Below are positions 14,998 to 37,947 of a stretch of 64,000 nt of DNA, one piece after another. Source of the stretch: Flavobacterium sp. 5. GTDB lineage: Bacteria; Bacteroidota; Bacteroidia; Flavobacteriales; Flavobacteriaceae. The notes beneath the pieces are model-generated. The model did no database searches and was not told the origin of the DNA. It was given only the letters and a program-made list of their open reading frames with translations. How positions within the stretch are numbered: position 1 is the first letter of the stretch; each line of letters opens with the position of its first letter. The stretch lies in contig NZ_PHUE01000001.1 in assembly GCF_002813295.1 (NCBI RefSeq), positions 744,001-808,000 of the forward strand, read 5' to 3'. The translations under genes were made by a program, and so were the position numbers.

Positions 14998-15290
14998 TTT
15001 GTAGGTGTTGCCTATTTTTTTGATAAGCCCTCCTTCAATTTTAATAGGGTCACCTTTAGTTTTAATAGGTCACAACTCAAAAAAAGGTAGGCTTTCCTAG
15101 CCATTTAAAAGGTGCTCCTTTTGATTTCATAGGTGTTACCTATGGTTTGGGTAGGTGCTCCTATGATTTGGGTAGGTGCTCCTATGATTTGGGTAGGTGC
15201 TCCTATGATTTGGGTAGGTGCTCCTATGATTTGGGTAGGTGCTCCTATGATTTGGGTAGGTGCTCCTATGATTTGGGTAGGTGCTCCTAT
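14998..15290. repeat. Intergenic array of about 14 degenerate 21-bp units (array 1)
   Basis: Units 8-14, starting every 21 bp at 15149, 15170, 15191, 15212, 15233, 15254 and 15275, are virtually identical; the last is cut short. Each is built on the dyad TAGG-TGCT-CCTA followed by TGATTTGGG. To the left are about seven diverged units (from 14998) that keep 21-22 bp spacing and mostly keep TAGG-N4/5-CC(T) (TAGGTGTTGCCTA, TAGGGTCACCTTTA, TAGGCTTTCCTA, TAGGTGTTACCTA). The 21-bp period leaves several frames open, producing repetitive ORFs that I do not regard as genes. Confidence 0.92.
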
Positions 15291-15316
15291 CAAAATCATG
15301 GCAAGCCATGATTTTG
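15291..15316. repeat. Perfect hairpin at the right edge of array 1
   Basis: CAAAATCATGG and CCATGATTTTG (11 bp each) are exact reverse complements with a CAAG loop and directly abut the last repeat unit. There is no T-run, so it is not an obvious terminator. Confidence 0.85.
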
Positions 15317-15332
15317 ACAAATACTGCAGCAA

Positions 15333-15372
15333 CAAAAAAAAAACCTCATTCTAATTGCTTAAAACGAGGTTG
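15333..15372 (-). terminator. Terminator of the ABM-domain gene
   Basis: On the minus strand the stem AACCTCGTTTTAA / TTAGAATGAGGTT is followed by a run of about ten T, roughly 90 nt after the stop codon. It resembles the terminator at 34767-34806. Confidence 0.8.
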
Positions 15373-15459
15373 GTTTTATATAATTTATCAGAGATTTACT
15401 GCCTTTGAAAGTCTTTCGATAGCTACTATTGTTACCTATTATCCTAATTCAATTGATTA

Positions 15460-15852
15460 TTAACTTTTTAGTTTAGAAAATATTTCTTTCATAGTTGCTG
15501 GATCTATCACTGACATATCAATAAGTCGAAGGGCTTTGACCATATTGAGTGTAGTGCTTTTGTATTTTTGAAAATGTGGTGTTTTCAAATGTGATTCATA
15601 AGCTTCTTTGTTAACATATATTTCCAAAATTCTTATTTGTGTGGGATTATCCTTTTCAAACATTGGAAAAATTGAAATAACACCAGGCTCTATTTCGACG
15701 GAAGCACTGGATTCTTCTTTAAGAATTTCAATATATTCTTTAAGAAAATTAGAGTCAATCTCGATTTCTGTTAGTCTTACAATCATTTTGTCTTGGGCAT
15801 TGATACTACCAATTGAAAAAAATATCAGTAGTAAAATTAGAGATTTTTTCAT
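15460..15852 (-). CDS. Secreted antibiotic-biosynthesis-monooxygenase (ABM) fold protein
   Basis: 130 aa with a signal peptide (MKKSLILLLIFFSIGSINAQ). The mature part fits the ABM ferredoxin-like dimer fold (PF03992): MIVRLTEIEIDSNFLKEYIEI, a central EPGVISIFPMFEKDNP strand, ILEIYVNKEAYESHLKTPHF and a final helix. Automatic pipelines call such proteins quinol monooxygenase (YgiN-like). A secreted form with unknown substrate is common in Flavobacteria. It lies alone between the repeat array and structured repeat copy 2. Confidence 0.82.
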   Translation of the reverse strand: MKKSLILLLIFFSIGSINAQDKMIVRLTEIEIDSNFLKEYIEILKEESSASVEIEPGVISIFPMFEKDNPTQIRILEIYVNKEAYESHLKTPHFQKYKSTTLNMVKALRLIDMSVIDPATMKEIFSKLKS

Positions 15853-16061
15853 TTTACATTATTTATAATTTAAACTAATTTATGGTTAATTATACTAAGT
15901 AACATTATTCTGCCTCATTAGTCATTCTCACAAACCTATATTATGCTAAATTGTACTTATCTGCTAAGATAATCAAACATAAATTAGTTTAAGTATATGA
16001 AAAACTAAACATAATGATTTTAAATATTTTGCACTTCATTAGAAAACACATTATTTATCTT

Positions 16062-16164
16062 TCTGAAACCGAATGCCCTAGCCCTGATAGTAGTGGAAAT
16101 CCTTTTTATTTTTCCTTTAAAAATAAAAAGATTGCAACGGATAGCAGGAATAAGCTCCAAAAAA
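16062..16164 (+). ncRNA. Flavo-1-like structured RNA repeat, copy 2 of 5
   Basis: It runs from GAAACCGAATGCCCTAGCCC to GGATAGCAGGAATAAGCTCC plus an A-run. The central hairpin is perfect: CTTTTTATTTTT (16102-16113), loop CCTTT, AAAAATAAAAAG (16119-16130). Copy 5 has the same loop with a different but fully paired stem. Resemblance to the Flavo-1 motif is from memory. Confidence 0.65.
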
Positions 16165-16190
16165 AAATGACATCCTTACGAATGTCATTT
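16158..16190 (-). terminator. Terminator of the M3 peptidase gene
   Basis: The stem AAATGACAT / ATGTCATTT has an 8-nt loop and a T-run on the minus strand, 23 nt after the stop codon. It overlaps the end of structured repeat copy 2. Confidence 0.8.
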
Positions 16191-16212
16191 CTATGTATTG
16201 AATTTGATATAA

Positions 16213-18339
16213 CTATTTTGTTAATAGTCCAGCATTTTTTAAGTATGGTTCGATTTGCATATCGTGACCAATGAATTCTTTGAAAGCTTGGTTTAAATCA
16301 ACACTGTTTCCTACAGACAAGATGTATTTCTTGAATCGCTCACAGTTTTCTCTAGTCATACCACCGTGGGCTTGCATCCAGTCATATACATTATAATCTA
16401 AAGTTTTTGACCATGTGTATGCGTAATACCCAGCTGAATATCCACCGCCCCAAATGTGTGCAAAATAAGGAGTGTGGTAACGTGGTGGTACTTCACTAAC
16501 CAATAATCCATATTTTTCTAAAGCTTCTTTCTCGAAAACCAAAGTCGGTTTGAAATCAGATTCTTTTTGAACACTATGCCAAGCCATATCAAGAGTTGAT
16601 GCTGCTAAAATTTCGGTTACATCATATCCTTTATTGAAGGTTTCGGCTTTCTTAATTTTATCGATTAATTCTTGTGGAATTGGTTCTTTGGTTTGGTAAT
16701 GAATCGCATAATTTTTTAGAACTGCTGGGTCTAATGCAGCATGCTCATTGATTTGAGATGGAAATTCTACAAAATCTCTTGGCACTGCTGTACCTGATAA
16801 TGATGTATAGTCTTGGTTCGCAAACAATCCATGTAAAGTATGACCAAATTCATGGAACATAGTTGTCACATCATCAAAACTAATTAAAGATGGGTTTCCG
16901 TCTACTGGTTTAGAGAAATTGTAAACGTTTACAATTACTGGTTTTTGTTTTAAATAATGTGATTGATTAACGAAAGTACTCATCCAAGCACCTCCATTTT
17001 TATTGTCACGAGTATAAAAATCCAAATAGTAAATAGCAATAGAAGTTCCTTTTTCGTCAAAAACCTCATATACTTTTACATCTGGATTGTACACAGGTAA
17101 ATCTGTTCTGACCTTGAAAGTGATTCCATACATTTGCTTGGCTGCATAGAATACTCCTTTTTCTAATACGGCAGTCAATTCAAAATACGGTTTAATTTGA
17201 CTTTCGTCCAAATCGTATTTAGCTTTACGTACTTGTTCAGAATAGAAATTCCAATCCCAAGCCTCCAATTTAAAGCCACCGTTTTGAGAATCTATTAAAT
17301 CTTGAATTTCTTTGGCTTCAACTTTGGCTTTGGCAACAGCTGGAGTAGCAATTTTAGCTAATAAATCCATAGCTGGTTCTGGAGTTTTTGCCATCTGATC
17401 TTGTAGTTTCCACTCAGCAAAACTTTTCTTACCCATCAAATTGGCTTTTTGTAAACGTAGTTTTGCAGTTTTCTCCAAAGTCTCACGTGTATCCCCTTCG
17501 TCATTCTTTTCGGCACGATACCATGATGCTTTATAGATTTTCTCTCTTGTAGCACGGTTTTTTAAACTCACCAATAAAGGCTGTTGAGTTGTATTCAATA
17601 AACCGATTAAATATTTGTTTTCATATCCTGCTTCTTTGGCTTTTTGTTTGGCAGCTTCAATTTCGCCAGCACTCAATCCATCTAAATCGGCAACATTATC
17701 AAATAAAACGGCTCCGTTTTTTCTAGCCAATAACAATTTATTTCCAAAAAGAGTACTTAAAGTAGCTAACTCTTTATTGATATCCTTCATTTTTTCTTTA
17801 TCTGCTTCGGATAAATTAGCTCCGGCTAATTCAAATTTCTGCAAATAATATTCTGTAAGTTTTTTGTCTTCACCTTTCAATTTACTTAAATCGATTGCCT
17901 TGAAACGATTGTACAATTTACTGTTTAAATAAATTTTATCATTGTGCCCAGATAATATTGGAGCATATTCTGCTTCAATAGCCTGCAAGGTAGGATTAGT
18001 GTTAGAACCAGTTAGATTATAAAAAATATCTGTAGCTCTGTTCAAATCTACTCCAGAGGTTTCTAAGGCTAAAACAGTGTTTTGAAAAGTTGGTTTTGCT
18101 GGATTGTTAGCAATGGTTTCAATCTCCTTATCGTGAACTTTTAAACCATATTCAAAAGCAGGTTTAAAATGTTCGTCCTTGATAATACTAAAATCTGGCG
18201 CCTGATACTGTAAAGTACTTCTTTGCAATAGTGGATTTTTCATTTTTACATCATTGTTTTGAGCATTTATAGTTTGCGCCTGCATCGAAAGGACAAAACA
18301 TAATGAATTGGTTAATAATAGCTTATAAAAAACTCGCAT
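16213..18339 (-). CDS. M3 family peptidyl-dipeptidase (Dcp-like)
   Basis: 708 aa, typical for Dcp/oligopeptidase-like M3 zinc peptidases. The zinc motif HEFGH is at 496-500 (context TTMFHEFGHTLHGLF), followed by the Glu-containing DFVEFPSQINEH ligand segment. A signal peptide-like N-terminus (MRVFYKLLLTNSLCFVLSMQ) points to the periplasm, where it would remove dipeptides from peptide C-termini or degrade short peptides. E. coli Dcp lacks such a leader. It is monocistronic with its own terminator. Confidence 0.93.
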   Translation of the reverse strand: MRVFYKLLLTNSLCFVLSMQAQTINAQNNDVKMKNPLLQRSTLQYQAPDFSIIKDEHFKPAFEYGLKVHDKEIETIANNPAKPTFQNTVLALETSGVDLNRATDIFYNLTGSNTNPTLQAIEAEYAPILSGHNDKIYLNSKLYNRFKAIDLSKLKGEDKKLTEYYLQKFELAGANLSEADKEKMKDINKELATLSTLFGNKLLLARKNGAVLFDNVADLDGLSAGEIEAAKQKAKEAGYENKYLIGLLNTTQQPLLVSLKNRATREKIYKASWYRAEKNDEGDTRETLEKTAKLRLQKANLMGKKSFAEWKLQDQMAKTPEPAMDLLAKIATPAVAKAKVEAKEIQDLIDSQNGGFKLEAWDWNFYSEQVRKAKYDLDESQIKPYFELTAVLEKGVFYAAKQMYGITFKVRTDLPVYNPDVKVYEVFDEKGTSIAIYYLDFYTRDNKNGGAWMSTFVNQSHYLKQKPVIVNVYNFSKPVDGNPSLISFDDVTTMFHEFGHTLHGLFANQDYTSLSGTAVPRDFVEFPSQINEHAALDPAVLKNYAIHYQTKEPIPQELIDKIKKAETFNKGYDVTEILAASTLDMAWHSVQKESDFKPTLVFEKEALEKYGLLVSEVPPRYHTPYFAHIWGGGYSAGYYAYTWSKTLDYNVYDWMQAHGGMTRENCERFKKYILSVGNSVDLNQAFKEFIGHDMQIEPYLKNAGLLTK

Positions 18340-18489
18340 ATTAAATATTTTTAAATTAGTAAGCTATAAAATTAACAAAAAAAACTATTTAGCATGTTAA
18401 AATAACAAACAATGCTAAATCCTTACATTATTTAAAAAATAATACCGAACATCTTCAAAAAATTAAAACAATGCAGACAAAATAAATTT

Positions 18490-18497
18490 TATATTTG
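18490..18497 (+). promoter_or_regulatory. Putative -7 box (TATATTTG) of the DUF1569 gene
   Basis: It matches TAnnTTTG, 23 nt before the ATG at 18521. Confidence 0.5.
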
Positions 18498-18520
18498 TTA
18501 AAACACTTTAAAACTAAAAC

Positions 18521-18964
18521 ATGAATTCTATATTCGATAAAAGTGATAACCAATCTATAATAGCCCGAATCAATACGCTGAAACCCGAGAGTACTGCATT
18601 GTGGGGGAAAATGTCAGCAGATCAAATGCTGAAACATGCCAATGAAACTATTATTGTAGCTTTTGGTGAAAACCAAGTGAAAGTAAATTTTGTTTTGAGA
18701 CTTTTGGGGAGAATACTGAAAAAGAACGCTTTTATTAAGGGTTTTGGAAAAAATAGCCCAACTGCAAAAGAGTTTATTTTCATTGATCATTATGATTTTG
18801 ATGAAGCAAAAACCGAATTGATAAAAAACTTTAGCCGTTTTGCCGAAGGAACACAATCGATCAGCGTAATGAATCATCCTTTTTGGGGAAAAATGACTTA
18901 TGAAGATTGGAACAAATTGATGTGGATTCACATAAACCATCATTTAGATCAGTTTGGCGTTTAG
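18521..18964 (+). CDS. DUF1569 / DinB-like domain protein
   Basis: 147 aa. It has the pattern of the DUF1569 four-helix DinB-like family: LWGKMSADQMLKHANETI (H39), SVMNHPFWGKMTYEDWNKLMW, and the terminal IHINHHLDQFGV with His residues suited to a metal site. DinB-like proteins include thiol-dependent metalloenzymes, but this branch has no known activity. It is followed after 27 bp by a nuclease gene, probably in one operon. Confidence 0.8.
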   Translation: MNSIFDKSDNQSIIARINTLKPESTALWGKMSADQMLKHANETIIVAFGENQVKVNFVLRLLGRILKKNAFIKGFGKNSPTAKEFIFIDHYDFDEAKTELIKNFSRFAEGTQSISVMNHPFWGKMTYEDWNKLMWIHINHHLDQFGV

Positions 18965-18991
18965 TATTCAACACAAAAAAAACACTCCTTA

Positions 18992-19639
18992 ATGAGTATT
19001 ATTAGACATAAACATTACTTCTTATCCTATTCTGAAGAGCACGAACAGGCTGAATGGGCAGCCTATTATTTAACAGGTAAATTGCAGTATGAACACCATT
19101 ACGAGCGACCTTATTTTAAACAAGATCCAATGGTAGATACTGAATCAGCACATTGGAGAAACTACAAAGACACCGGTTATGACAAAGGACATTTGGTTCC
19201 TGCAGCCGATATGAAATTTTCTGAAGAGGCGTACAAAGAAACCTTTCTTACTTCGAATGTAGCACCCCAAAACAGAGACTTTAATGCAGGTGTATGGAAT
19301 AGACTCGAACAAAAAGTTCGCTTTTGGGCAGATAAATACACCGCGCTTTTCATAGTAACAGGAGGTATTCTGCAAGACAATTTGATTACTATTGGCGATG
19401 AAGAAGTTTCAGTTCCTGAATACTTCTTCAAAATCGTGGTTCGGGTTCAAAACGATACTTTGGTTATGATTCCTTTTTTAGTTCCCAATGCAAAATCAGA
19501 TGCACCACTCTATACCTTTGCCTCTACTATTGATAAGATTGAAGAAATTACAAAAATAGATTTCAACCAAAAACTAGTAGAGAGAATCGAAGAAAAAATT
19601 CAAAAAGAGTTGAGTTACAAAGAATGGAGCTTTAGTTAA
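18992..19639 (+). CDS. DNA/RNA non-specific endonuclease (NUC1/NucA family)
   Basis: 215 aa. It has the family active site: DKGHLVPAADM (DKGH 64-67 in place of the usual DRGH, catalytic H67) and SNVAPQNRDFNAGVWNRLE, with N98 the likely metal ligand. Most bacterial members are secreted, but this one has no signal peptide and no upstream in-frame ATG before the stop codon at 18962. It therefore appears cytoplasmic, or is exported some other way. No inhibitor gene is evident beside it. Confidence 0.88.
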   Translation: MSIIRHKHYFLSYSEEHEQAEWAAYYLTGKLQYEHHYERPYFKQDPMVDTESAHWRNYKDTGYDKGHLVPAADMKFSEEAYKETFLTSNVAPQNRDFNAGVWNRLEQKVRFWADKYTALFIVTGGILQDNLITIGDEEVSVPEYFFKIVVRVQNDTLVMIPFLVPNAKSDAPLYTFASTIDKIEEITKIDFNQKLVERIEEKIQKELSYKEWSFS

Positions 19640-19685
19640 ATCAAAAGCATGTTAGAAATCTACCATGAATTTTGGGTTTAATTTG

Positions 19686-19693
19686 TACATTTG
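19686..19693 (+). promoter_or_regulatory. Putative -7 box (TACATTTG) of trmD
   Basis: It matches TAnnTTTG, 19 nt before the trmD ATG. Confidence 0.5.
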
Positions 19694-19712
19694 CCGTTCT
19701 TAAAAAAGCAAC

Positions 19713-20390
19713 ATGAGAATTGATATTATAACTGTATTACCTGAATTATTAAGGAGTCCCTTTGAAGCTTCGATTATGAAACGTGCCATAGACAAAGGAT
19801 TGGTAGAGGTTCATTTTCATAATTTAAGAGATTACACTACCAATAAACAAAAAAGTGTTGACGATTATCCTTTTGGTGGTGGTGCAGGAATGGTTATGAC
19901 TGTTCAGCCTATAGATGCTTGTATCACTCATTTGAAAAGCGAAAGATCATACGATGAAATCATTTATATGTCTCCAGATGGTGAAACGCTAAATCAAAAA
20001 ATGGCCAACACCATGTCTATGTATGAAAACATTATCATTTTATGTGGGCATTACAAAGGGGTTGATCAACGTGTTCGAGATCATTTTATAACCAAAGAAA
20101 TCTCAATAGGCGATTATGTACTTTCTGGAGGAGAATTGGGAGCTCTTGTATTATCTGATGCTTTAATCCGATTAATTCCCGGAGTATTAAGTGACGAAAC
20201 ATCTGCCCTGACAGATAGTTTTCAAGATGGCTTACTCTCAGGTCCTATTTACACCAGACCAGCCGATTATAAAGGATGGAAAGTTCCTGATGTACTCTTA
20301 AGTGGTCATTTTGCAAAAATTGACAAATGGAGAGAAGACACTGCCTACGAACATACAAAGAACAGAAGACCTGATTTACTAAACGATTAA
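19713..20390 (+). CDS. trmD: tRNA (guanine37-N1)-methyltransferase
   Basis: 225 aa, the usual length. SPOUT-fold TrmD signatures are present: [22 protein letters not shown] (51-62), [28 protein letters not shown] (trefoil-knot SAM site) and the C-terminal [19 protein letters not shown]. It uses SAM to make m1G37 next to the anticodon and prevents frameshifting. rplS follows about 650 bp downstream with one small secreted-protein gene between. In many bacteria the two are adjacent in a ribosomal operon, so here the operon looks interrupted and each part has its own promoter. Confidence 0.97.
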
Positions 20391-20459
20391 TTTTCGTATA
20401 TTTATACTTTAAAATAAGAATTAGTTCACTCTTTTGAATAACCTTAAAAGTATAAAATC

Positions 20460-20831
20460 ATGAAAGAATTAATCTTCAAAGCAATTTTAATTATTGCGTT
20501 TTTCATATCATCTATTTCATTTGCGCAAGGAATAAATAAAAAATCCTTGTTGAATGAACTAAACAAAACTTATGGCATTGCATTAAGTGAAGATGAAAAA
20601 ACATACTACGAAAATGCCAACAACCAATTAGTATTGGAATTGTTTACTATCGACGAAAAGAATTTATCAAAAGAAGACCGCAATAAACAAATTGATAAAT
20701 TATTTGATAAAAGAGACAAAACATTGACTTCGTCACTGGGCATAAACAAATACAGTGATATCAAAGCTAAAACAGATGAAAAAATAGCGCAAACCATACA
20801 AAAAATAAAAGAAGCCAAAATGGCTCCATAA
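20460..20831 (+). CDS. Hypothetical secreted small helical protein
   Basis: Not recognised. 123 aa with a signal peptide (MKELIFKAILIIAFFISSIS, cleavage after FAQ at about 23). The mature 100 residues are highly charged and predicted helical (LSKEDRNKQIDKLFDKRDKT, KTDEKIAQTIQKIKEAKMA), so it is probably periplasmic. It sits between trmD and rplS with its own terminator. Confidence 0.65.
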   Translation: MKELIFKAILIIAFFISSISFAQGINKKSLLNELNKTYGIALSEDEKTYYENANNQLVLELFTIDEKNLSKEDRNKQIDKLFDKRDKTLTSSLGINKYSDIKAKTDEKIAQTIQKIKEAKMAP

Positions 20832-20854
20832 ATTATTTTTTGGGATACAATTAC

Positions 20855-20892
20855 AACAAAGAGCTTTTATCACTAAAAGCTCTTTGTTTTGA
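20855..20892 (+). terminator. Rho-independent terminator
   Basis: A 14-bp stem AACAAAGAGCTTTT / AAAAGCTCTTTGTT has a 6-nt loop followed by T. Confidence 0.9.
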
Positions 20893-20924
20893 AAAATTTA
20901 CCAAATAGCCCTATCCTAAAAAAA

Positions 20925-20959
20925 TTCATAATTCATAATTCATAATTCATAATTTATAA
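20925..20959. repeat. Five tandem TTCATAA heptamers upstream of the rplS promoter
   Basis: Four exact TTCATAA units and one TTTATAA end 2 bp before the -7 box, so they occupy the -33 region. Related sequence lies by the thiN and DUF1456 promoters. Confidence 0.85.
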
Positions 20960-20960
20960 T

Positions 20961-20968
20961 TACTTTTG
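20961..20968 (+). promoter_or_regulatory. Putative -7 box (TACTTTTG) of rplS
   Basis: It matches TAnnTTTG directly after the heptamer repeat. The predicted leader before the rplS ATG is about 70 nt, longer than for most genes here, leaving room for translational control. Confidence 0.55.
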
Positions 20969-21038
20969 CACCCTCATTAGACCAACCTCTGGCGAAATCC
21001 GCGAATGTTGCTCTTTTAAAACCATAAAATAAAACAAA

Positions 21039-21389
21039 ATGGCAGATTTAATGAAATTCGTTCAAGACGAATTTGTAACAAGAAAAGAATTCCCTGTATT
21101 CGGAGCTGGAGACACAATCACAGTTTACTACGAAATTAAAGAGGGTGAAAAAACGAGAACACAGTTTTTTAAAGGTGTTGTAATTCAAAGAAGAGGTTCT
21201 GCTAACACAGAAACTTTTACAATTCGTAAAATGTCAGGAGCAATTGGAGTTGAGCGTATCTTCCCAGTTAACTTACCAGCTTTACAAAAAATTGAAATCA
21301 ACAAGAAAGGTGCTGTACGTAGAGCTAGAATTTTCTACTTCAGACAACTTACTGGTAAAAAAGCTAAGATTAGAGATAAAAGAAGATAG
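21039..21389 (+). CDS. rplS: 50S ribosomal protein L19
   Basis: 116 aa, standard length. Family features are PVFGAGDTITVYYEIKEGEK, RTQFFKGVVIQRRGS, TFTIRKMSGAIGVERIFP and the basic C-terminus RRARIFYFRQLTGKKAKI. It is a structural protein at the 30S-50S interface. It is followed immediately by a strong terminator. Confidence 0.98.
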   Translation: MADLMKFVQDEFVTRKEFPVFGAGDTITVYYEIKEGEKTRTQFFKGVVIQRRGSANTETFTIRKMSGAIGVERIFPVNLPALQKIEINKKGAVRRARIFYFRQLTGKKAKIRDKRR

Positions 21390-21411
21390 TTTACTACACT
21401 TCTTTAATAAT

Positions 21412-21456
21412 AAAAAGTCCCATTTCGATGTATATCGAATTTGGGACTTTTTTTTT
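21412..21456 (+). terminator. rplS terminator
   Basis: The stem AAAAAGTCCCA / TGGGACTTTTT has an inner TTCGAT/ATCGAA stem and is followed by a T-run. Confidence 0.93.
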
Positions 21457-21592
21457 GATAATTTTTAGGGGTCAAAAATCATAATTTAAGAATCAAATGG
21501 CGTTAAAAATATCAAATTAAAAATATCACAGAATACATATTTAATATTATTTTTTTATATTAAATTTAAAACACTATTACAACATCATTTCA

Positions 21593-21600
21593 TATCTTTG
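21593..21600 (+). promoter_or_regulatory. Putative -7 box (TATCTTTG) of icd
   Basis: It matches TAnnTTTG, 78 nt before the icd ATG. The leader contains an exact 7-bp inverted repeat (GCCTTAT 21604-21610, ATAAGGC 21631-21637) that could form a 5'-UTR hairpin. Confidence 0.5.
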
Positions 21601-21660
21601 CCCGCCTTATCTCAATCGTTATACTTGCTAATAAGGCCAGTTTATAAACTTATGATTTAG

Positions 21661-23916
<2,256 letters not shown>

Positions 23917-23940
23917 TTTATTTAGTTTATATATTTATTC

Positions 23941-23972
23941 AAAAGACAACTCGAAAGGGTTGTCTTTTTTAT
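23941..23972 (+). terminator. icd terminator
   Basis: The stem AAAAGACAAC / GTTGTCTTTT is followed by T. Confidence 0.92.
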
Positions 23973-24087
23973 TTGGTTGTAACTCATCTCTTTCTTTTCA
24001 AATCAAAAAATTTAACATAATTATTTTTCCATAAGTAAGCGAACATTCATTTATAATTAATACTTTTACTTCATCAAAACAAAAGTC

Positions 24088-24678: not shown

Positions 24679-24689
24679 AATAATCAACT

Positions 24690-29116: not shown

Positions 29117-29136
29117 ACATGAACTAATTTTAATTG

Positions 29137-29168
29137 AAAACATCCGCAACAAACGGGTGTTTTTTTTG
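29137..29168 (+). terminator. Terminator of the T9SS protein gene
   Basis: The stem AACATCCG / CGGGTGTT is followed by a T-run. Confidence 0.85.
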
Positions 29169-29325
29169 CATTATTTAAAAGATGTATATACTAATTGACT
29201 AATATTATTAGCCATTTAATCTTACCCATTTAAAATATAAAAAAAAAGATATGAGCCATTAAACTAAAAACCCATTACCGAACACTTAGTGATACAAATG
29301 GATAAATCGTCTTTTGACTAGCTAA

Positions 29326-29403
29326 TACAGAGTAGATAAAATTGGAAAAAAGAGAGCCAAAGAAAAAACAGAAGATCTTCCGTTGGCAATTCAGGAAATG
29401 TAG
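29326..29403 (+). pseudogene. Remnant: duplicated 3' end of the MFS gene
   Basis: By my alignment 69 of 78 bases match the end of the MFS gene at 24927-26201 (its last 25 codons and stop). The reading YRVDKIGKKRAKEKTEDL is intact with conservative changes (L/I, SF/PL, V/M), but nothing upstream of 29326 matches. It is a gene remnant from a lost paralogue or from recombination, not a functional gene. Confidence 0.85.
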
Positions 29404-29489
29404 AATACTAAATTTAATTTTTTATTTACAAATTAAACCTTTAATCTTTAAAATTATCCAATAGCTAACTAACCGTAAAACCATAGCTT

Positions 29490-30536: not shown

Positions 30537-30576
30537 TTATATAAGTCAAGCTAAAAGCTAATTACAAATCATATAT

Positions 30577-30622
30577 AAACCATTTTGTCAAAATTGTTGT
30601 TTTGACAAAATGGTTTTGTTTT
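30577..30622 (+). terminator. Terminator of the lipoprotein hydrolase gene
   Basis: A perfect 17-bp stem (30577-30593 with 30600-30616) with loop TTGTTG is followed by a T-rich stretch. Confidence 0.9.
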
Positions 30623-30721
30623 ATCCAAATTCTCATGTTCTGATATTAACGATAGATTAACACATCTTAAGTACGAATTTAATTGCAATCTATTGATATT
30701 TGCAAAATCAAAACCAAAAAA

Positions 30722-33124
30722 ATGATTATAAAGAAAGTTATTTACATTTCCTTGTTATTGCTCTTTTCCTTTCCTGTTTTCTCACAAGAGGCAAAAAATG
30801 ACGAAACGCACAAACAAAAATTTACTCTTAGCGGAATCATATCGGATTCTAACAGTAATGAAACCTTAATTGGTGTGAATGTTTTAATACCAGAATTAAA
30901 AGTAGGCGCTATGACAAATGAGTATGGTTTCTACTCCATAACACTGCCTGCAGGGAACTATAAAATTCAGATTACATCAATGGGATTTGAAACTATCGAA
31001 GAAACTATTGAATTGAATAAAAACTCAAAAAAGAATTTCAAATTAACTGGCAACGAAAATCTTTTACAGGAAGTAGTTATTAGTACTGAAAAGACAACAG
31101 CCAACATACGAAAACCTGAAATGAGTGTTAACAAACTATCTATTTCGGCTATCAAAAAAATGCCTGTTGTAATGGGAGAAGTTGATGTTATAAAATCTAT
31201 ATTATTTCTGCCTGGAGTTACCAATGCTGGTGAAGGACAATCTGGTTTTAACGTTCGTGGTGGTGGTGCTGATCAAAATTTAATCCTTTTGGACGAAGCA
31301 ATGATTTTTAACTCATCTCACGTTTTTGGATTTTTCTCTGTATTTAACCCCGATGCTATAAAAGATTTAAAATTATACAAAGGCGGAATTCCTTCTAAAT
31401 ATGGTGGACGAGCTTCTTCTGTATTAGATATTTATCAAAAAGACGGGAATAGTAATGATTTCCACATGAATGGAGGAATTGGATTAATTACCAGCCGAAT
31501 TCTTGCCGAAGGACCAATTGTGAAAGACAAAGGATCTTTCTTAATTGGAGGTCGTGCTTCCTATGCGCATTTGTTTCTAAAATTGGCGAATAACGACAAC
31601 TCAGCCTATTTTTATGATTTAAATACAAAGCTGAATTACAAACTCAACACTAATAATAGTTTATTCCTTTCTGGTTATTTTGGTCGGGATGTCTTTTCTT
31701 TAAATGAAACTTTTGCTAATACGTATGGAAACGCAACATTAAATTTGAGATGGAATCATCTTTTTAATGATAAAATATTCTCGAATTTATCTCTTATATA
31801 TAGTGATTATTATTACGGGCTAACACTTGATTTCCTTGGGTTTAACTGGAATTCAGGAATTAGAAATTACAATTTAAAATATGATTTTAAGCATTACCTA
31901 TCTAATAACTTAAAACTTAACTACGGATTTAACTCTACTTATTATGATTTCAATCCAGGAACAATTGATCCAAGTGGTTCTAATTCTAGTGTTAACTTTA
32001 AACAATTAGAAAAGAAATATGCGTTTGAAAATGGTATTTACGTAGAAGCAGAACAAATTATAACCGATAAATTGGCTATCAACTACGGAATACGATATAG
32101 TCTTTTTAACCGATTAGGAAGTTCTACAGTTAATTTATACGAAAATAATCAACCTGTAGCTTACGATTCCGAATTAAAAATTTACGAAAAAGGAACTCCA
32201 ATCGGAACTACTTTTTACAAAAAAAACAAAAGTATTGCTAGTTTTGACAACTTTGAACCTCGCCTTTCTGTAGCTTACGAATTAAGTCAAAACCAATCGG
32301 TTAAAGCTAGTTATAACCGCATGGTGCAATACCTGCAATTGGTATCTAACACAGCATCTCCAACCCCAATAGATATTTGGACCCCAAGTGATAACTACAT
32401 CAAGCCACAAATTGCAGATCAAGTAGCGGTGGGATATTTTAATAATTTTGCATCCAATGAATACACTTTAGAAGTGGAAAGTTTTTACAAGAAAATTAAA
32501 AACCGAATGGATTACATAGATGGTGCCAATTTAATTGCCAACGAAGCCATCGAACAAGTAGTTCTTAATGGAGAAATGCGCTCGTATGGTTTAGAGATAT
32601 TACTGCGAAAAAACACAGGGAAATTCAATGGTTGGATTGCTTATACTTTATCAAAATCACAACAAAGAACACCTGGAAGAACTCCAGACGAAATAGGTAT
32701 CAATAATGGCGAATGGTATCGTTCTGCTTATGATAAAACACACAATTTAGCCTTTACAGGAAATTACACTTTAAGCCCAAAATGGAATTTTGGAGGAAAC
32801 TTCACTTTCCAATCAGGTCAACCTGTAACCTTTCCAAATGGAAAGTATGTTTATCAAGATATTAAAGTGCCGAATTATGGCGAACGAAATGCAAGCAGCC
32901 TTCCATTATATCACCATTTAGATGTATCAGCTACTTATACACCAAAACCGCTTAAAAAGAAAGGATGGCAAGGCGAATGGGTTTTTAGCATTTATAATGT
33001 TTATAATAGAAAAAATGCCGCCTCTATTAGCTTCAGAGAAAATGTAGACACAGGAGCAAACGAAGCTGTAAAACTATCCATTTTTGGAGCAGTTCCATCT
33101 GTTTCATATAATTTTAAATTCTAA
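30722..33124 (+). CDS. TonB-dependent outer-membrane receptor with N-terminal carboxypeptidase-regulatory-like domain
   Basis: 800 aa from the ATG at 30722, which gives the signal peptide MIIKKVIYISLLLLFSFPVF. An upstream in-frame TTG at 30683 would spoil it. A CarboxypepD_reg-like beta-sandwich follows (about 35-110, TLSGIISDSNSNETLIGVNV), then a plug domain (GFNVRGGGADQNLILLDEAM) and a 22-strand barrel ending YNFKF with aromatic terminus. It imports an unidentified ligand with TonB energy. It is the first gene of an operon with the DUF4249 lipoprotein 4 bp downstream, a pairing frequent in Bacteroidota. Confidence 0.93.
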   Translation: MIIKKVIYISLLLLFSFPVFSQEAKNDETHKQKFTLSGIISDSNSNETLIGVNVLIPELKVGAMTNEYGFYSITLPAGNYKIQITSMGFETIEETIELNKNSKKNFKLTGNENLLQEVVISTEKTTANIRKPEMSVNKLSISAIKKMPVVMGEVDVIKSILFLPGVTNAGEGQSGFNVRGGGADQNLILLDEAMIFNSSHVFGFFSVFNPDAIKDLKLYKGGIPSKYGGRASSVLDIYQKDGNSNDFHMNGGIGLITSRILAEGPIVKDKGSFLIGGRASYAHLFLKLANNDNSAYFYDLNTKLNYKLNTNNSLFLSGYFGRDVFSLNETFANTYGNATLNLRWNHLFNDKIFSNLSLIYSDYYYGLTLDFLGFNWNSGIRNYNLKYDFKHYLSNNLKLNYGFNSTYYDFNPGTIDPSGSNSSVNFKQLEKKYAFENGIYVEAEQIITDKLAINYGIRYSLFNRLGSSTVNLYENNQPVAYDSELKIYEKGTPIGTTFYKKNKSIASFDNFEPRLSVAYELSQNQSVKASYNRMVQYLQLVSNTASPTPIDIWTPSDNYIKPQIADQVAVGYFNNFASNEYTLEVESFYKKIKNRMDYIDGANLIANEAIEQVVLNGEMRSYGLEILLRKNTGKFNGWIAYTLSKSQQRTPGRTPDEIGINNGEWYRSAYDKTHNLAFTGNYTLSPKWNFGGNFTFQSGQPVTFPNGKYVYQDIKVPNYGERNASSLPLYHHLDVSATYTPKPLKKKGWQGEWVFSIYNVYNRKNAASISFRENVDTGANEAVKLSIFGAVPSVSYNFKF

Positions 33125-33128
33125 TACC

Positions 33129-33965
33129 ATGAAAAACATAAAACTCTTTATAATACTACTAATTACTTCTTTATCTATTGTAAGTTGCGAAGATGTTATC
33201 AATGTCGATTTAGACACAGCACCTCCAAAATTAGTTATAGATGCTTCAATCAAATGGGAAAAAGAAACCACAGGAAACATTCAAAAAATTAAACTAACAA
33301 CCACAACCGATTATTATTCGAATACTATCCCTGTAGCGACAGGGGCTACTGTTACTGTTACCAACACAACATTAGGAACTCCAGTTACTTTTCAATTTAT
33401 CGAAGACGGACAAACAGGAGAATATATTTGCAACAATTTCAACCCAATTATCAATAATGACTATGCTCTTACTGTAGTTTATAAAGGTCAAACGTACACC
33501 TCAACTTCTAAGTTTATGGCTTCACCAGTAATAGCATCTACTGAGCAATCTGTAAAACCTGGAATTGAAGGCAAAGATGTTTATGAAATTAAATTTTATT
33601 GGCAAGACAACGGAGCCGAGGATAACTTTTATCTTGTAGGAGCCAAAAATGCTAACGTATCCTATCCTGAATATGGAGTACTTACTGACGAATTTTATCA
33701 AGGCAATCAAATGTTTGCTTTCTATCGAGACGACAAAATCAAAAAAGGGGATGTTTTAGAATTCAGTATACAAGGAATCACGGAACAATACAATAATTAC
33801 ATGAATAAGTTACTTAACATTGCTGGCTCCGATGGAGGAAACCCTTTTTCGGCCCCACCAGCTACCTTAAGAGGAAACATTGTAAATCAAACCAATCCAG
33901 ATGATTATCCATTGGGCTTTTTCCATCTTTCTGAAATAGATTCTGATACCTATACTATTCAGTAG
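33129..33965 (+). CDS. DUF4249 family lipoprotein
   Basis: 278 aa from the ATG at 33129 (an upstream in-frame start inside the receptor gene is unlikely). The lipoprotein signal ends LSIVSC, with C20 lipidated. The start EDVINVDLDTAPPKLVIDASI and beta-rich body match DUF4249, whose genes commonly follow a TonB receptor. It probably sits on the outer membrane and helps capture the receptor's ligand, comparable in position to SusD, but this is inferred from context. Confidence 0.9.
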   Translation: MKNIKLFIILLITSLSIVSCEDVINVDLDTAPPKLVIDASIKWEKETTGNIQKIKLTTTTDYYSNTIPVATGATVTVTNTTLGTPVTFQFIEDGQTGEYICNNFNPIINNDYALTVVYKGQTYTSTSKFMASPVIASTEQSVKPGIEGKDVYEIKFYWQDNGAEDNFYLVGAKNANVSYPEYGVLTDEFYQGNQMFAFYRDDKIKKGDVLEFSIQGITEQYNNYMNKLLNIAGSDGGNPFSAPPATLRGNIVNQTNPDDYPLGFFHLSEIDSDTYTIQ

Positions 33966-33980
33966 TTACACTAAAAAATT

Positions 33981-34063
33981 GCGAATTATCAATTATGAAT
34001 TACGAATCAAGAAACACTATCTTTGACTACTAATTCATAATTGTCAATTCATAATTCGTAATT
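33981..34063. repeat. Inverted AT-rich repeat around the thiN promoter
   Basis: The left segment (33981-34008), read in reverse complement, matches the right segment (34031-34063) over about 20 bp with two mismatches (TAATTCATAATTG core). The -7 box at 34018-34025 lies between the arms. Confidence 0.65.
34018..34025 (+). promoter_or_regulatory. Putative -7 box (TATCTTTG) of thiN
   Basis: It matches TAnnTTTG, 42 nt before the thiN ATG. Confidence 0.5.
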
Positions 34064-34067
34064 AAAT

Positions 34068-34730
34068 ATGTCTTCACACCATATCGTTCGCGACGACCAA
34101 GAACCAGCTTTAATTATTGCCAACGGTGCCGCTTGTAATCCCGAATTATTAGGACAACTACTTGAATGGTCTCCATTGGTAATCGTACTCGATTCGGCAA
34201 TAGAACGAGTATTGGAATTGGGAATTAAAGTCGATGTATTACTAGGTGATTTCGATCGTGGATTTGACCCGGAAATTTACAAAGCAAAACAATATCCAAT
34301 AGAAATTGTACATACTCCAGACCAAGACAAAACCGACTTGGAAAAAGCTTTTGAATACCTCATCGAAAGACAAATTCCAGCAGCAAATGTTGTTTGGGCC
34401 ACAGGAAAACGTGCCGATCATACCATTACCAATCTTACAAATATTGTTCGCTATCGTGATCTACTAAAAATTGTAATTCTCGACGACCATTCCAAAATAT
34501 TCTTGCTTCCCAATACGTTTGAAAAATGGTATACCGCTGGTACTCCAATTTCATTAATTCCAGTTGGAGTTGTAAACGGAATCAATTCCAAAAACTTAGT
34601 TTATCCTTTAGAAAATGACACCCTCACTATTGGATACCGAACAGGAAGCAGCAATGAAGTTGTCCAAGATGGACTAGTAAAACTAACCTATACAGATGGG
34701 GATTTATTATTAATGGAATGTATGGATTAA
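34068..34730 (+). CDS. thiN: Thiamine pyrophosphokinase
   Basis: 220 aa, normal length. The catalytic motifs are LGDFDR (59-64), HTPDQDKTDLEKA (82-94) and GKRADHTITNL (113-123), with the C-terminal thiamin-binding beta region. It transfers pyrophosphate from ATP to thiamine to form thiamine diphosphate in the cytoplasm, a salvage function. It is monocistronic with a bidirectional terminator. No thiamine riboswitch was seen in the 102-bp upstream region. Confidence 0.95.
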   Translation: MSSHHIVRDDQEPALIIANGAACNPELLGQLLEWSPLVIVLDSAIERVLELGIKVDVLLGDFDRGFDPEIYKAKQYPIEIVHTPDQDKTDLEKAFEYLIERQIPAANVVWATGKRADHTITNLTNIVRYRDLLKIVILDDHSKIFLLPNTFEKWYTAGTPISLIPVGVVNGINSKNLVYPLENDTLTIGYRTGSSNEVVQDGLVKLTYTDGDLLLMECMD

Positions 34731-34766
34731 CATTTTCAGAGCAGTATTACGATCATTTTATTACAT

Positions 34767-34806
34767 AAAAAAACCTCGTTTTAGTTATCTAAAACGAGGT
34801 TTTTTC
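34767..34806. terminator. Bidirectional terminator
   Basis: The stem AAAAAACCTCGTTTTA / TAAAACGAGGTTTTTT with a short loop lies between convergent genes. Confidence 0.93.
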
Positions 34807-34821
34807 TTTATTAACTTAAAA

Positions 34822-35418
34822 TCATTCCTTAACCAATACAATTGTAGCCTTGTATCCAGTACCCACATTCCATGGCTGACTCGTAATAGCAGTTCCTTTA
34901 TCATCATAAACCTCAAATTGAGCCGTATTTGGTGACGCAAAACCTTCATTCAAAGCTTCAAAATCAATTTTATTAATTCCTGGAACTAAATTTATTTTGA
35001 ACTCTTTAAAGGTTCCATCCAAACGAACTTCAGCTTCAATCACCTTATCATTCAGATATATTTTAATTTTATCACCATCTACAAAAGCAGCGTCCCGAAA
35101 ACGAACTGTAGAGGCAAAAGTTTTTGTTTTAAAACTTCCTAAATACTGGTTTCGTCTATAATAAATTCCTACCGAATCCTTTGGCTCTTTGTATAAACTT
35201 CTATTTTTAAAAAGTTCTTCCGGATTAATTTCAAAAGGATCTGGCTTTTTCTCAACAACAGGCAGCTCTATTTTTGGCTTGATTTCTTCGGGCGGATTAG
35301 CCTTTTTAATATCCATCTTTTTATTTGGAATGGCAATACTTTTAGTATTGAATTCCTCCTGCGCATATCCTTGCAAGGAAATACCTGTAAGCATTATTAA
35401 AAACAAAATTGTTTTCAT
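34822..35418 (-). CDS. Hypothetical secreted protein with C-terminal beta domain
   Basis: 198 aa, function not recognised. Signal peptide MKTILFLIMLTGISLQGYAQ, then a Pro/Lys/Glu-rich spacer (about 20-75), then a compact beta-rich domain (about 80-198) with YLGSFKTKTFASTVRFRDAA, DGDKIKIYLNDKVIEAEV and GINKIDFEALNEG, which looks like an immunoglobulin-like sandwich. Similar proteins occur in other Flavobacteria. Likely periplasmic or outer-membrane associated. Confidence 0.7.
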   Translation of the reverse strand: MKTILFLIMLTGISLQGYAQEEFNTKSIAIPNKKMDIKKANPPEEIKPKIELPVVEKKPDPFEINPEELFKNRSLYKEPKDSVGIYYRRNQYLGSFKTKTFASTVRFRDAAFVDGDKIKIYLNDKVIEAEVRLDGTFKEFKINLVPGINKIDFEALNEGFASPNTAQFEVYDDKGTAITSQPWNVGTGYKATIVLVKE

Positions 35419-35551
35419 ATCATCTAAACTTTAAAAAATTAAAACCTCTATATATAAAACATTCAATTATACTATTTATTGTATTTATAGGACCATGATT
35501 ACCACAAAACACTCATTCGTAATTTATAACTACAATAAATAAAGAGTATCA

Positions 35552-35651
35552 TTTTTTGGAGCTAATCCCGCTTTCGCCTTTATCTTTTTATCTCGATTGT
35601 CATCGATATAAAAAGGATATCGGCTCTATCGGGGCTAGGGCATTTGGTTTC
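35552..35651 (-). ncRNA. Flavo-1-like structured RNA repeat, copy 3 of 5
   Basis: On the minus strand it runs from GAAACCAAATGCCCTAGCC to GCGGGATTAGCTCC plus A-run. The central stem pairs CTTTTTATATCGAT with ATCGAGATAAAAAG around a GACA loop, with one A-G mismatch. It is nearly identical to copy 4, which lies on the other side of the M20 gene in the same orientation. The rest of the 35419-35971 gap shows no gene. Confidence 0.65.
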
Positions 35652-35971
35652 AAAAAACAATATTTTAATTATAAAAAAACCATTTTAGTAAACAAACTAC
35701 ACTAATAATATTTTTAACAAAAAAGACAACAAACACACTTTACTTAACAAATTAAATCCTATTTTTGGGAAAACAATTGTTTTTTCGCAATACAAATGGC
35801 TAAAATCAGGATTTTAAATATTCTTAAATTTTAAATAAATAGTCCCTAATTAAGAGTTTTTCAAGACAAACTGAGGCATCATAAATTGAACCATTAAAGA
35901 AAAAATTAGCAGAAATAATAAAAGGTGAAACCAAAAAACCATAAATAATAAACGAGATAAAATATTCCTAA

Positions 35972-37309
35972 ATGAAAACAAATCAACTTTCCCAACTATT
36001 GAGTGTATCGGCTGTCCTGTTTTTTAGCACGGTAATTTGCAATAAGACAACCGCACAGAATAAAAACTATGCAACAACTATAGCCACTGCAGCAGATAAA
36101 ATTGAACCAAAAGTAATCGACTGGAGACACGACATACATCAAAACCCAGAACTTGGTAACCGTGAAGTACGAACTGCTGCTTTGATTGCCAAACATTTAC
36201 AATCATTAGGAATTGAAGTAAAAACCGGTGTGGGGATTACAGGTGTAGTGGGGATTTTGAAAGGAGATAAACCCGGACCAGTAGTAGCTCTTCGAGCTGA
36301 TATGGATGCACTACCTGTCGAAGAAAAAAATGATTTACCATTTGCTTCAAAAGTAAAAACCACTTATAACGGAAAAGAAACTCCAGTTATGCACGCTTGC
36401 GGACACGATGCTCACGTAGCGATATTGATGGGGGTTGCCGAGATATTATCGGGTATGAAAAAAGACTTAAAAGGTACTGTCAAATTTATCTTTCAGCCAG
36501 CCGAAGAAGGGGCTCCTTATGGCGAAGAAGGTGGCGCAGCTCTTATGATCAAAGAAGGAGTATTGGAAAATCCAAAAGTAGATGTGATTTTTGGATTACA
36601 CATGGATGCACAAACTGAAGTTGGAAAAATTGGCTATCGTCCAGGCGGAATTATGGCTGCCGTAGGATCTCTTAAAATTACTGTAAACGGAAAAGGTTCT
36701 CATGGAGCTGCCCCTTGGTCTGCTATTGATCCGATCGTTGTTTCGGCACAAATAATCAATAATCTGCAAACCATTGTAAGCCGTAATGTAAACATCACCG
36801 AAAATCCTGCTGTAGTAACCATTGCTTCTATTCATGGCGGAAACCGTGACAACATAATTTCAGATAAAGTAGAAATGTTGGGTACTGTAAGAACTTTTTC
36901 AGACTCGGATCAAAAACTAATTTACGACAGAGTCAAACAAGTAGCCGAAAAAACTGCCGAATCTGCTGGCGCTACTGCCGATGTAATCCTACCTTACGAG
37001 CATTATTACCCTGTTACTTATAACAACGAAAAACTAACTGCCGAAATGTTGCCTACCCTGGAAAAATCTGCAGGCAAGGAAAACGTACTATTGAAACCCG
37101 CCATAACTGGTGCAGAAGATTTTTCATTCTTTCAGAAAAAAGTTCCGGGAATGTACTTTTTTATAGGTGGTTTACCAAAAGGCGCCGATTCTAAAACATC
37201 TGGTCCACATCATACCTCTCAATTTATTATTGACGACAAAGCTTTAAAAACAGGATTAAAATCGTTGTCAAATTTGGTCTTGGACTATATGGAGATGACA
37301 AAAAAATAA
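35972..37309 (+). CDS. Secreted M20D amidohydrolase (hippurate hydrolase-like)
   Basis: 445 aa with a signal peptide-like N-terminus (about 1-28, ending TTAQ). Metal and catalytic motifs of M20D are complete: HACGHDAHVA (141-150, C143 and H145), QPAEEG (175-180), GLHMD (208-212, H210), GAEDFSFF and PHHTSQF. The family cleaves N-acyl amino acids or related amides (hippurate, N-acetyl amino acids, amidated auxin). The leader suggests periplasmic action on scavenged conjugates. The gene is flanked by two same-orientation copies of the structured repeat. Confidence 0.93.
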   Translation: MKTNQLSQLLSVSAVLFFSTVICNKTTAQNKNYATTIATAADKIEPKVIDWRHDIHQNPELGNREVRTAALIAKHLQSLGIEVKTGVGITGVVGILKGDKPGPVVALRADMDALPVEEKNDLPFASKVKTTYNGKETPVMHACGHDAHVAILMGVAEILSGMKKDLKGTVKFIFQPAEEGAPYGEEGGAALMIKEGVLENPKVDVIFGLHMDAQTEVGKIGYRPGGIMAAVGSLKITVNGKGSHGAAPWSAIDPIVVSAQIINNLQTIVSRNVNITENPAVVTIASIHGGNRDNIISDKVEMLGTVRTFSDSDQKLIYDRVKQVAEKTAESAGATADVILPYEHYYPVTYNNEKLTAEMLPTLEKSAGKENVLLKPAITGAEDFSFFQKKVPGMYFFIGGLPKGADSKTSGPHHTSQFIIDDKALKTGLKSLSNLVLDYMEMTKK

Positions 37310-37356
37310 CATCCTCCACAAAATAGAGTACTCAAGTTGCTCTAAACAAACTGAAC

Positions 37357-37415
37357 ATAACCCATACATTTGAAGAGATTTAGAACTCCAAAAATGTATG
37401 GGTTATTATTTTTCA
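37357..37415 (+). terminator. Terminator of the M20 amidohydrolase gene
   Basis: A perfect 15-bp stem (ATAACCCATACATTT with AAATGTATGGGTTAT) has a 20-nt loop and a T-rich end that runs into structured repeat copy 4. Confidence 0.85.
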
Positions 37416-37509
37416 GGAGCTATTCCCGCTTTCGCCTTTATCTTTTTGCCTCGATTGTCATCGATACAAAAAGGATATCGGCTCTATCGGGGCTAGGGCA
37501 TTCGGTTTC
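37410..37509 (-). ncRNA. Flavo-1-like structured RNA repeat, copy 4 of 5
   Basis: Same layout as copy 3 on the minus strand, from GAAACCGAATGCCCTAGCC to GCGGGAATAGCTCC. Compared with copy 3, an A-T stem pair is G-C and the next T-A pair is a T-G wobble, so pairing is kept. It abuts the terminator of the upstream gene. Confidence 0.65.
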
Positions 37510-37620
37510 ATAAGTAACTATTTATTTACTGCACTTTTGCAGGAGTAAACTATACAAAACACATAGCCAACTATACGTTTTATATAGTTTGCATATACAT
37601 TTACCATGTACAACTATATA

Positions 37621-37947
37621 TTTAGTATGGCAGAACCTATCTTTTACTATAGTACCACCTATAATTTATCATAGTACAGCCATGCTTTTAGTATAGTACC
37701 ACTTATAATTTAGTATAGTACAACCATTATTTTAGTACAGTATAACCTATCATTTAGTATAGACAGCCTACATTTTAGTATGGTACTACTTATCATTTAG
37801 TATAGTGTAGCCATTGTTTTAGTATAGTATAACCTATCATTTAGTATAGCTAGCCTTCATTTTAGTATGGCATACCCTATCATTTGTTATAGTTAACCTC
37901 CATATTAGTATAGTATAGCCTACTATTTAGTATAGTTATACCATCAA
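37621..37947. repeat. Intergenic array of about 15 degenerate 21-22 bp units (array 2)
   Basis: Units begin with TTTAGTATAG at 37621, 37643, 37665, 37687, 37709, 37731, 37753, 37774, 37796, 37818, 37840, 37861, 37883, 37905 and 37926. The most frequent continuation is TATAACCTATCA. Units 6 and 10 differ at one base; others diverge at 3-8 positions. Less clear units continue left to about 37560. The array fills the gap between structured repeat copy 4 and the leader of the serine hydrolase gene. No ORF spans it. Confidence 0.92.

Follow-up and report, generated by a model that had tools for sequence, protein, structure and literature searches.

The window analysed here, a 64,000-bp stretch of the genome of Flavobacterium sp. 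5 (contig NZ_PHUE01000001.1, positions 744,001 to 808,000), contains two tandem arrays of short units that differ in their letters, termed array 1 (type 1) and array 2 (type 2). These raise the question of whether the two are one kind of element, and what such an element might do in the cell. Both arrays are members of one widespread, apparently undescribed class of DNA element, which is linked in many genomes to a protein family designated famX in this study. The explanation that we favour, with a modest preponderance of belief, is that the arrays are predicted tandem DNA-binding platforms in a genome-wide, famX-linked system.

Architecture and copies of the arrays

The arrays and their parts are as follows (window coordinates).

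14967..15302, + strand: array 1 (type 1), 16 units of 17 bp at a 21/22-bp period, 336 bp in total, T-rich strand on +
14967..15135, + strand: first units of array 1, position-specific, each homologous to its counterpart in most other type-1 copies
15110..15290, + strand: near-identical 21-bp units of array 1, 8.6 copies, recent duplication (Tandem Repeats Finder)
15290..15317, no strand assigned: palindrome closing array 1, read from the sequence; a variant closes the 2588-kb copy
about 37550..37940, + strand: array 2 (type 2), about 16 units with half-sites CTAT../..ATAG, period 22

Tandem Repeats Finder reported array 1 at 15110-15290 with a period of 21 and diverged units ahead, and array 2 at 37608-37936 with a period of 22 and 15.1 copies. 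The start of array 1 was moved to 14967 by homology to other copies, 31 bp ahead of the coordinate in the original prediction, and the start of array 2 near 37550 was set by eye against a copy at 436 kb. In the second half of array 1, tail units stand in place of the later core units. Both arrays are chains of a 17-bp CCTAt-N7-aTAGG-like site, one per 21-22 bp; the type-1 unit is CCTAtnATTTTgaTAGG, and the separation between units is mostly 4 or 5 bp. From CCTA to the next TAGG the spacing is nearly constant (13 bp in 102 pairs, 12 bp in 5), whereas that from TAGG to CCTA is variable (8 bp in 83 pairs, 9 bp in 20). Therefore, the 17-bp frame was preferred as the rigid unit; the unit alignment first proposed for the two arrays was correct, with its frame better cut in this way. 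Among 229 units of 13 type-1 arrays (11 of this genome and two of a relative, the values of last units being assumed), the spacer was 4 bp in 171, 5 bp in 49 and 3 bp in nine. The arrays have no unique spacers of the type found with clustered regularly interspaced short palindromic repeats (CRISPR), the units being parted by 3-5 bp only. Rfam matches in the window included no CRISPR and none on the arrays, only the Flavo-1 motif and an L19 leader.

A unit profile of the other type-1 arrays, with array 1 excluded, chained array 2 into 16 units at a score of 78.3 (shuffled maximum 12.5, with 0 of 200 shuffles reaching 78.3). Array 1 scored 257 with the same leave-one-out profile (0 of 200 shuffles), and two control stretches were not significant. 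Aligned directly base by base, the two arrays gave only a marginal result, as three of 100 shuffles reached the score. The significant chaining of array 2 by a type-1 profile indicates that the arrays share one architecture despite their differing letters, so that the two are real and alike, as had been proposed.

BLAST with array 1 and a copy at 3219 kb identified 11 type-1 loci, array 1 included, in the 4.97-Mb genome, and BLAST with array 2 identified two type-2 loci, array 2 itself and its sister at 436 kb (alignment score 144, 0 of 100 shuffles). Array 2 also matches part of an array at 3824 kb, which begins as type 1 and ends in a type-2-like tail. Where the original prediction would have been undone by a search returning only the two arrays, or by alignments at shuffle level, further loci and a significant unit-profile match were found; these 11 type-1 and two type-2 loci support one class of intergenic element over chance satellites. 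Over the first 210 bp, most of 13 type-1 copies (two from another species included) present their distinct units in a common order, and the copies are thus a shared core rather than a simple satellite; those at 759 kb (array 1), 1440 kb and 2772 kb deviate in the second half. The left end, GCCATAC, is conserved among type-1 copies, and the right ends differ by eye. By reading, and with short frames crossing the arrays ignored, all arrays sit between long open frames. Candidates at 2680 kb (by eye within a long open frame), 36 kb, 448 kb, 3362 kb, 2368 kb and 1025 kb, and G049, were weak and were not counted. At locus L023, an unusually long T-run (>40) follows a terminator-like hairpin about 80 bp before the array at 167 kb.

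Two suggestions about placing were not borne out. Among 13 arrays there was no preference for the terminus, the position of which was only inferred as opposite dnaA (3211.7 kb), nor for a replichore (Kolmogorov-Smirnov p 0.77). No rule of gene orientation was seen among 13 arrays with small open reading frames ignored: five were in tandem settings with the T-rich strand in the gene sense, three in tandem antisense, four between convergent genes and one between divergent genes.

Outside this genome, a 38-bp two-unit pattern matched 45 stretches of the genome collection, among them Flavobacterium branchiophilum, F. aquicola, F. psychrotolerans, F. aquariorum, F. seoulense and Epilithonimonas mollis, and metagenome-assembled genomes (MAGs) named Chryseobacterium, Chitinophagales, Prevotellaceae, Planctomycetaceae and Verrucomicrobiaceae. 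Some of the MAG assignments (Planctomycetaceae, Verrucomicrobiaceae) may be binning errors, and several stretches with only 2-3 units are probably chance. When 299 genomes of the genus were scanned with one mismatch allowed, eight matched, six of them clearly (at least five matches); these six include the present genome, which matched 65 times. The reversed control pattern gave one or two matches in about 25 of the 299 genomes and none in this genome; because it reaches that level, G024 and G180 (one and two matches) were left uncounted. Type-1-like arrays are rare in the genus and multi-copy where present, and with the six clear genomes and the other taxa the class extends beyond the genome in which it was noticed, into other Bacteroidota and a few MAGs assigned to other phyla.

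A linked protein family

Comparison of array neighbours identified famX, an undescribed family of proteins of about 160 aa, first beside arrays of F. aquicola, F. aquariorum (twice), G283, F. branchiophilum, Epilithonimonas and a Chryseobacterium MAG. Homologues identified from the protein sequence likewise adjoin an array, clearly in L137 and weakly in the distant L134; at L135 the array is seen by eye only and is below threshold. Profiles placed the family beside arrays in further taxa, and 12 of the 45 pattern stretches hold a member. By profile search, famX is present in 47 of the 299 genus genomes (three of which rest on E 0.005-0.01 only), that is, in all six clearly array-positive genomes versus 41 of the 293 others, and in 26 of 296 genomes, or 18 of 139 genera, of the phylum.

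One search returned 230 members at E≤0.001 and a second, in which only 8000 candidates were scored, 547; the 120 members listed from each are all unnamed, hypothetical or uncharacterized. At E≤0.001, Pfam, PHROGs and PADLOC gave no family for any of the members tested, and with no Pfam match at that threshold no replication or partition family was found for them. NCBIfam gave none above cut-off (one match, L083, E 3.6e-5, was far below its cut-off), and the Protein Data Bank gave no clear relative by sequence, the best (E 0.0067) being a designed helical protein. An origin in phages or plasmids was considered and rejected: the unit pattern matched one stretch in viral contigs, which is chance-like, and the F. 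aquicola famX, the only subfamily searched, had no matches in plasmids, phages or viral contigs, nor was any plasmid record encoding a relative of it found. A literature search that reached few subscription journals, and so does not prove absence, found no published description of the arrays or famX. This, with the Rfam result on the window arrays, agrees with the earlier statement that no named family was known for them.

In a gene-first test, the best self-match lag among 12-40 was determined in the famX flanks, 600 bp on the 3′ side versus the 5′ side. For the genus, 44 of 50 famX genes had a lag of 21 or 22 at ≥0.45 within 600 bp 3′ (37 at ≥0.5), versus one of 49 on the 5′ side (Fisher p 3e-20 for 3′ versus 5′); these 50 are part of 80 places from the profile search, the rest being mostly weaker matches, and related famX genes are not independent in such counts. 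Once three array-first genes were removed, 41 of 47 had a 3′ array. As a control, only two of 51 window genes passed at ≥0.5, both at arrays 1 and 2. Outside the genus, a 21/22 lag was found at ≥0.45 in 17 of 29 famX loci, taking the best of both flanks (15 at ≥0.5), and another lag at ≥0.5 in two. Over 97 famX loci (10 found array-first; the broken or partial genes L211 and L212 and same-gene repeats dropped), the best lag at ≥0.5 was 21 in 54, 22 in 13 and another value in five. One subfamily carries its array 5′ (L173, L219, L228, L229).

Two further features recur at these loci. A terminator-like hairpin precedes the array in 39 of the 64 famX loci with a 3′ array, against 0 of 99 shuffled controls. 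A Cro/C1-like helix-turn-helix (HTH) gene, detected with a profile built from six such array-following genes, lies 3′ of the array in 22 of 62 famX loci, one gene being counted twice; all HTH-followed loci belong to one subfamily by N-terminal motif, of which the member L163 is without an HTH gene. Array letters group according to famX subfamily, with values of 0.60 within and 0.49 between subfamilies (0 of 1000 permutations). Separately, the sequence 3′ of the famX gene at L172 shows by eye a higher-order repeat of about 43 bp, nearly double the usual period.

Letter classes, rRNA operons and Flavo-1 in this genome

A first single-sequence search had indicated that famX is absent from this genome, which was overturned by profiles that returned three and then five genes, at 347, 1391, 2002, 2385 and 3193 kb. 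Each adjoins an array, the one at 2385 kb lying 5′ of its gene. In addition to these five gene-linked arrays, a partial census that includes the 11 type-1 and two type-2 loci counted no fewer than 28 solo arrays, which fall into six letter classes. Neither the linked protein family nor this variety of letter classes was part of the original prediction. Three of the genome's own famX-linked arrays have solo relatives: that at 2002 kb has them at 1288, 1551, 2286 and 4893 kb, that at 3193 kb at 1006, 2200, 2448, 2917 and 3677 kb, and that at 347 kb in five ribosomal RNA (rRNA) operons, 673-705 bp upstream of 16S. Alignments of the 347-kb array with these five rrn arrays scored 291-317 (shuffled maximum 79). 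The rrn arrays (L303-L307) have 22-bp units and vary in length from about 263 to 420 bp between nearly identical flanks; the five operons were met through Flavo-1 and their arrays. Because of these flanks and this mode of discovery, they count as one case, which has no bearing on operons that lack an array.

The arrays of the window are solo copies. Array 1 aligned with the famX-linked arrays L136 and L133 at 146 and 140 (shuffled mean about 20.6, 0 of 100 shuffles reaching the scores), and its first units (14967..15135) are also homologous with famX-linked arrays in other species. Its alignments with the famX-linked arrays in G117 and G283 far exceed shuffles, and array 1 is therefore regarded as a solo relative of the arrays of subfamily A, of which no famX gene was found in this genome by single-sequence and profile searches. 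Array 2 was tried as kin of the 22-bp array of the genome's own 347-kb famX and was not assigned to it, as the letter similarity was not significant (33 of 100 shuffles reach the score). The 436-kb sister of array 2 adjoins an HTH-like gene with a weak HTH_26 match (E 0.017, below cut-off). The array at 3647 kb has letters of its own; its candidacy as a relative of the 2002-kb array failed, with 51 of 100 shuffles reaching the score. Three of the four solo arrays of the 2002-kb class (L314, L315, L317) lie between divergent genes, and the neighbours of this class, judged by the look of their sequences, presumably include polA, topA and sufS.

The surroundings of the two window arrays are as follows.

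12848..14713, - strand: thioredoxin/AhpC-TSA-domain protein gene, neighbour of array 1, its start facing the array
15333..15372, - strand: terminator-like hairpin and T-run of the ABM-domain gene, adjoining array 1; read from the sequence, with a long loop, missed by a strict scan
15460..15852, - strand: ABM-domain protein gene, neighbour of array 1, its end facing the array
35972..37309, + strand: M20-family peptidase gene, neighbour of array 2, its end facing the array
37359..37405, + strand: terminator-like hairpin (long loop) 3′ of the upstream M20 peptidase gene; read from the sequence, missed by two hairpin scans
37418..37498, - strand: Flavo-1 RNA motif (RF01705), its 5′ end facing array 2
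38184..39362, + strand: serine hydrolase gene, beta-lactamase fold (PF00144), neighbour of array 2, its start facing the array

Flavo-1 has 115 matches in the genome, five of them in the window (3672-3815, 16076-16155, 35560-35640, 37418-37498 and 61477-61554). It lies within 200 bp of five of the 13 first array loci, with 0.4 neighbours expected within 400 bp under random placing, a value that ignores gene avoidance by both elements. The four solo arrays of the 2002-kb class are about 54-132 bp from a Flavo-1 match, and in all nine of these cases its 5′ end faces the array. Among 53 further Flavo-1 loci (the 61 best by score minus eight in the window or near known arrays), an array was found on the 5′ side in seven and on the 3′ side in none; five of the seven are the rRNA operons, counted as one case. 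Flavo-1 neighbours several arrays, with its 5′ end towards the array in every case inspected, and it may belong to the same intergenic landscape. It is nevertheless a separate element, 46 of the 53 further matches having no array within 500 bp. The accessible text of PMC9723704 gives no clue on Flavo-1 function.

The window also contains three heptamer repeats with common 7-bp letters (AATTCAT / TAATTCA; 20923-20961, 34031-34063 and 45867-45899, Tandem Repeats Finder), which are perhaps another dispersed short tandem repeat.

Explanations for the arrays

In the explanation that we favour, each unit would be a 17-bp near-palindromic putative operator, and the distance of 21-22 bp between units, two helix turns, would bring all sites to one side of the DNA. 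A typical letter class would consist of one master locus (famX gene, often a terminator, then the array) and solo arrays that share its letters. The famX module would supply a dimeric, sequence-specific factor that coats its arrays cooperatively and acts in trans; the candidates are famX or, in one subfamily, the Cro/C1-like HTH protein whose gene follows the array. The complex may act on chromosome structure or on nearby transcription, one class lying upstream of rRNA operons. Operator arrays that a dimer reads while assembling along one face of the DNA would account for the two-turn period, constant among unrelated letter classes, for the near-palindromic units and for the cognate gene beside one array of a class. 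Beyond the observed architecture, letter classes, famX linkage and placing, we infer protein binding, cooperativity and function. A wider version, in which each famX or HTH partner reads its own letter class, master and solo arrays alike, chromosome-wide, with a solo array perhaps lying upstream of every rRNA operon, and in which orthogonal classes would organise the nucleoid or adjust growth-rate genes, is put forward tentatively, as somewhat short of an even chance.

Covariation of bases within the unit is consistent with such sites. Across 50 arrays, one entered twice, the arms covary at pairs 4-14 (z 6.8) and 5-13 (z 6.9) in 397 distinct units selected without the positions of these pairs. 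With shuffles inside each array, 4-14 stays (z 3.4) and 5-13 is weak (z 1.8). Pair 3-15 has z 4.9 within arrays, but positions 3 and 15 were also used to pick the units, and pair 6-12 avoids complementarity (z -6.2, within-array shuffles). In type-1 units alone, covariation is weak, since there is little variation in the half-sites.

Repeated palindromic or direct sites in helical phase are familiar from lambda OR, F sopC, plasmid iterons and the Fis sites upstream of rrn, and lambda operators are 17 bp long, as are the sites here. The length of the near-palindromic site fits Cro/C1-type operators, HTH binding being putative. The present arrays differ from operator and partition arrays in number, with about 10-28 sites in each array and tens of arrays in a genome, and in their several letter classes and new protein family.

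Several observations weigh against this explanation. Six of the 50 genus famX loci are without a clear 3′ array (L135, L158, L159, L163, L172 and L173, the last with its array 5′), and 12 of the 29 loci outside the genus fail the lag test. Consensus units are palindromic at p<0.05 in only 13 of 47 arrays. Most famX proteins are acidic, with a pI near 5, unlike typical DNA binders, and the HTH gene is confined to a single subfamily. The five rrn arrays were found through arrays and share long near-identical flanks. Array letters and famX subfamily travel together by linkage; therefore, their correlation alone is no proof of recognition.

The strongest rival, which we regard as unlikely, is that the arrays are non-autonomous mobile repeats, similar to miniature inverted-repeat transposable elements (MITEs), spread by transposition or gene conversion, with famX as driver or passenger of a selfish element. 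Dispersed intergenic copies with a shared core, many of them solo, patchy presence (six clear genomes of 299), composites with Flavo-1 and the long shared flanks at rRNA operons would all be explained, as would core units 0 and 10, which are reverse complements 185-191 bp apart in the seven copies where the scan found both. The nearest published element found is BrickBuilt, a MITE of Porphyromonas gingivalis, which according to the accessible text has a 23-nt unit in 19 copies, is always intergenic, and has a leader and a tail, inverted repeats at its termini and target duplications of 4 bp (PMC4596501). The arrays share with it the phylum Bacteroidota, short tandem repeats without spacers and many intergenic copies, and one BrickBuilt copy lies beyond a Rho-independent terminator (PMC4596501, accessible text). 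They differ in their period (21 or 22, not 23 nt), apparently in their ends, and in their linked gene, no linked protein family being reported for BrickBuilt in that text (PMC4596501). Against mobility, no common right terminus is visible among type-1 copies, famX matches no transposase family, and the fixed 21/22 period across unrelated letter classes together with covarying arms points to selection of DNA sites.

In REP/REPIN systems (REP, repetitive extragenic palindrome), a cognate single gene stands beside some copies, and its product, RAYT (REP-associated tyrosine transposase), is a relative of Y1 transposases. By contrast, famX matches no Y1 transposase family, and the arrays are long, tandem and at fixed helical phase. 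REPs are palindromes of 20-40 bp tagged GTAG or CGTC at one end, and like the arrays they are intergenic palindromes dispersed in the genome (PMC3116915, PMC3733652, accessible parts). Operator platform and mobile element may both be true.

Transcription of the arrays into functional chains of RNA hairpins is very improbable, and we reject it as the main explanation. The type-1 array at 3219 kb does give much stronger folds than shuffles on either strand (z -10 and -14), but array 2 folds no better than shuffles (z 0.5), and the consensus fold of 12 cores reached only -5.1 kcal/mol (RNAalifold), so that no conserved RNA fold was seen. G-T pairs are not favoured over A-C in array units, a terminator-like hairpin stands ahead of the array at 39 of the 64 famX loci, and the T-rich strand has no fixed sense to the neighbours. 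Covarying arms, the lack of a G-T preference and the poor RNA fold speak for a near-palindrome in double-stranded form, with a T-rich middle of 7 bp, rather than for an RNA hairpin. Functionless satellites grown by slippage, to which the near-identical tail units with recent tandem growth (array 1; the 2588-kb copy) might point, are hard to hold and the least credible of all, given that the period is 21 or 22 at 67 of the 72 famX loci where a repeat is clear, that one protein family is linked both inside and outside the genus, and that pair 6-12 is avoided.

For famX, a family of hundreds of members, the association of its genes with long arrays of near-palindromic sites is the first strong clue from genomics. 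Should the arrays prove to be platforms for proteins, Bacteroidota would possess natural equivalents of the lacO/tetO arrays built in laboratories, in several orthogonal classes per genome, and these would be usable as locus tags and as a test bed for the co-evolution of site letters and their reader. For the arrays upstream of rrn, a link to growth control is directly testable.

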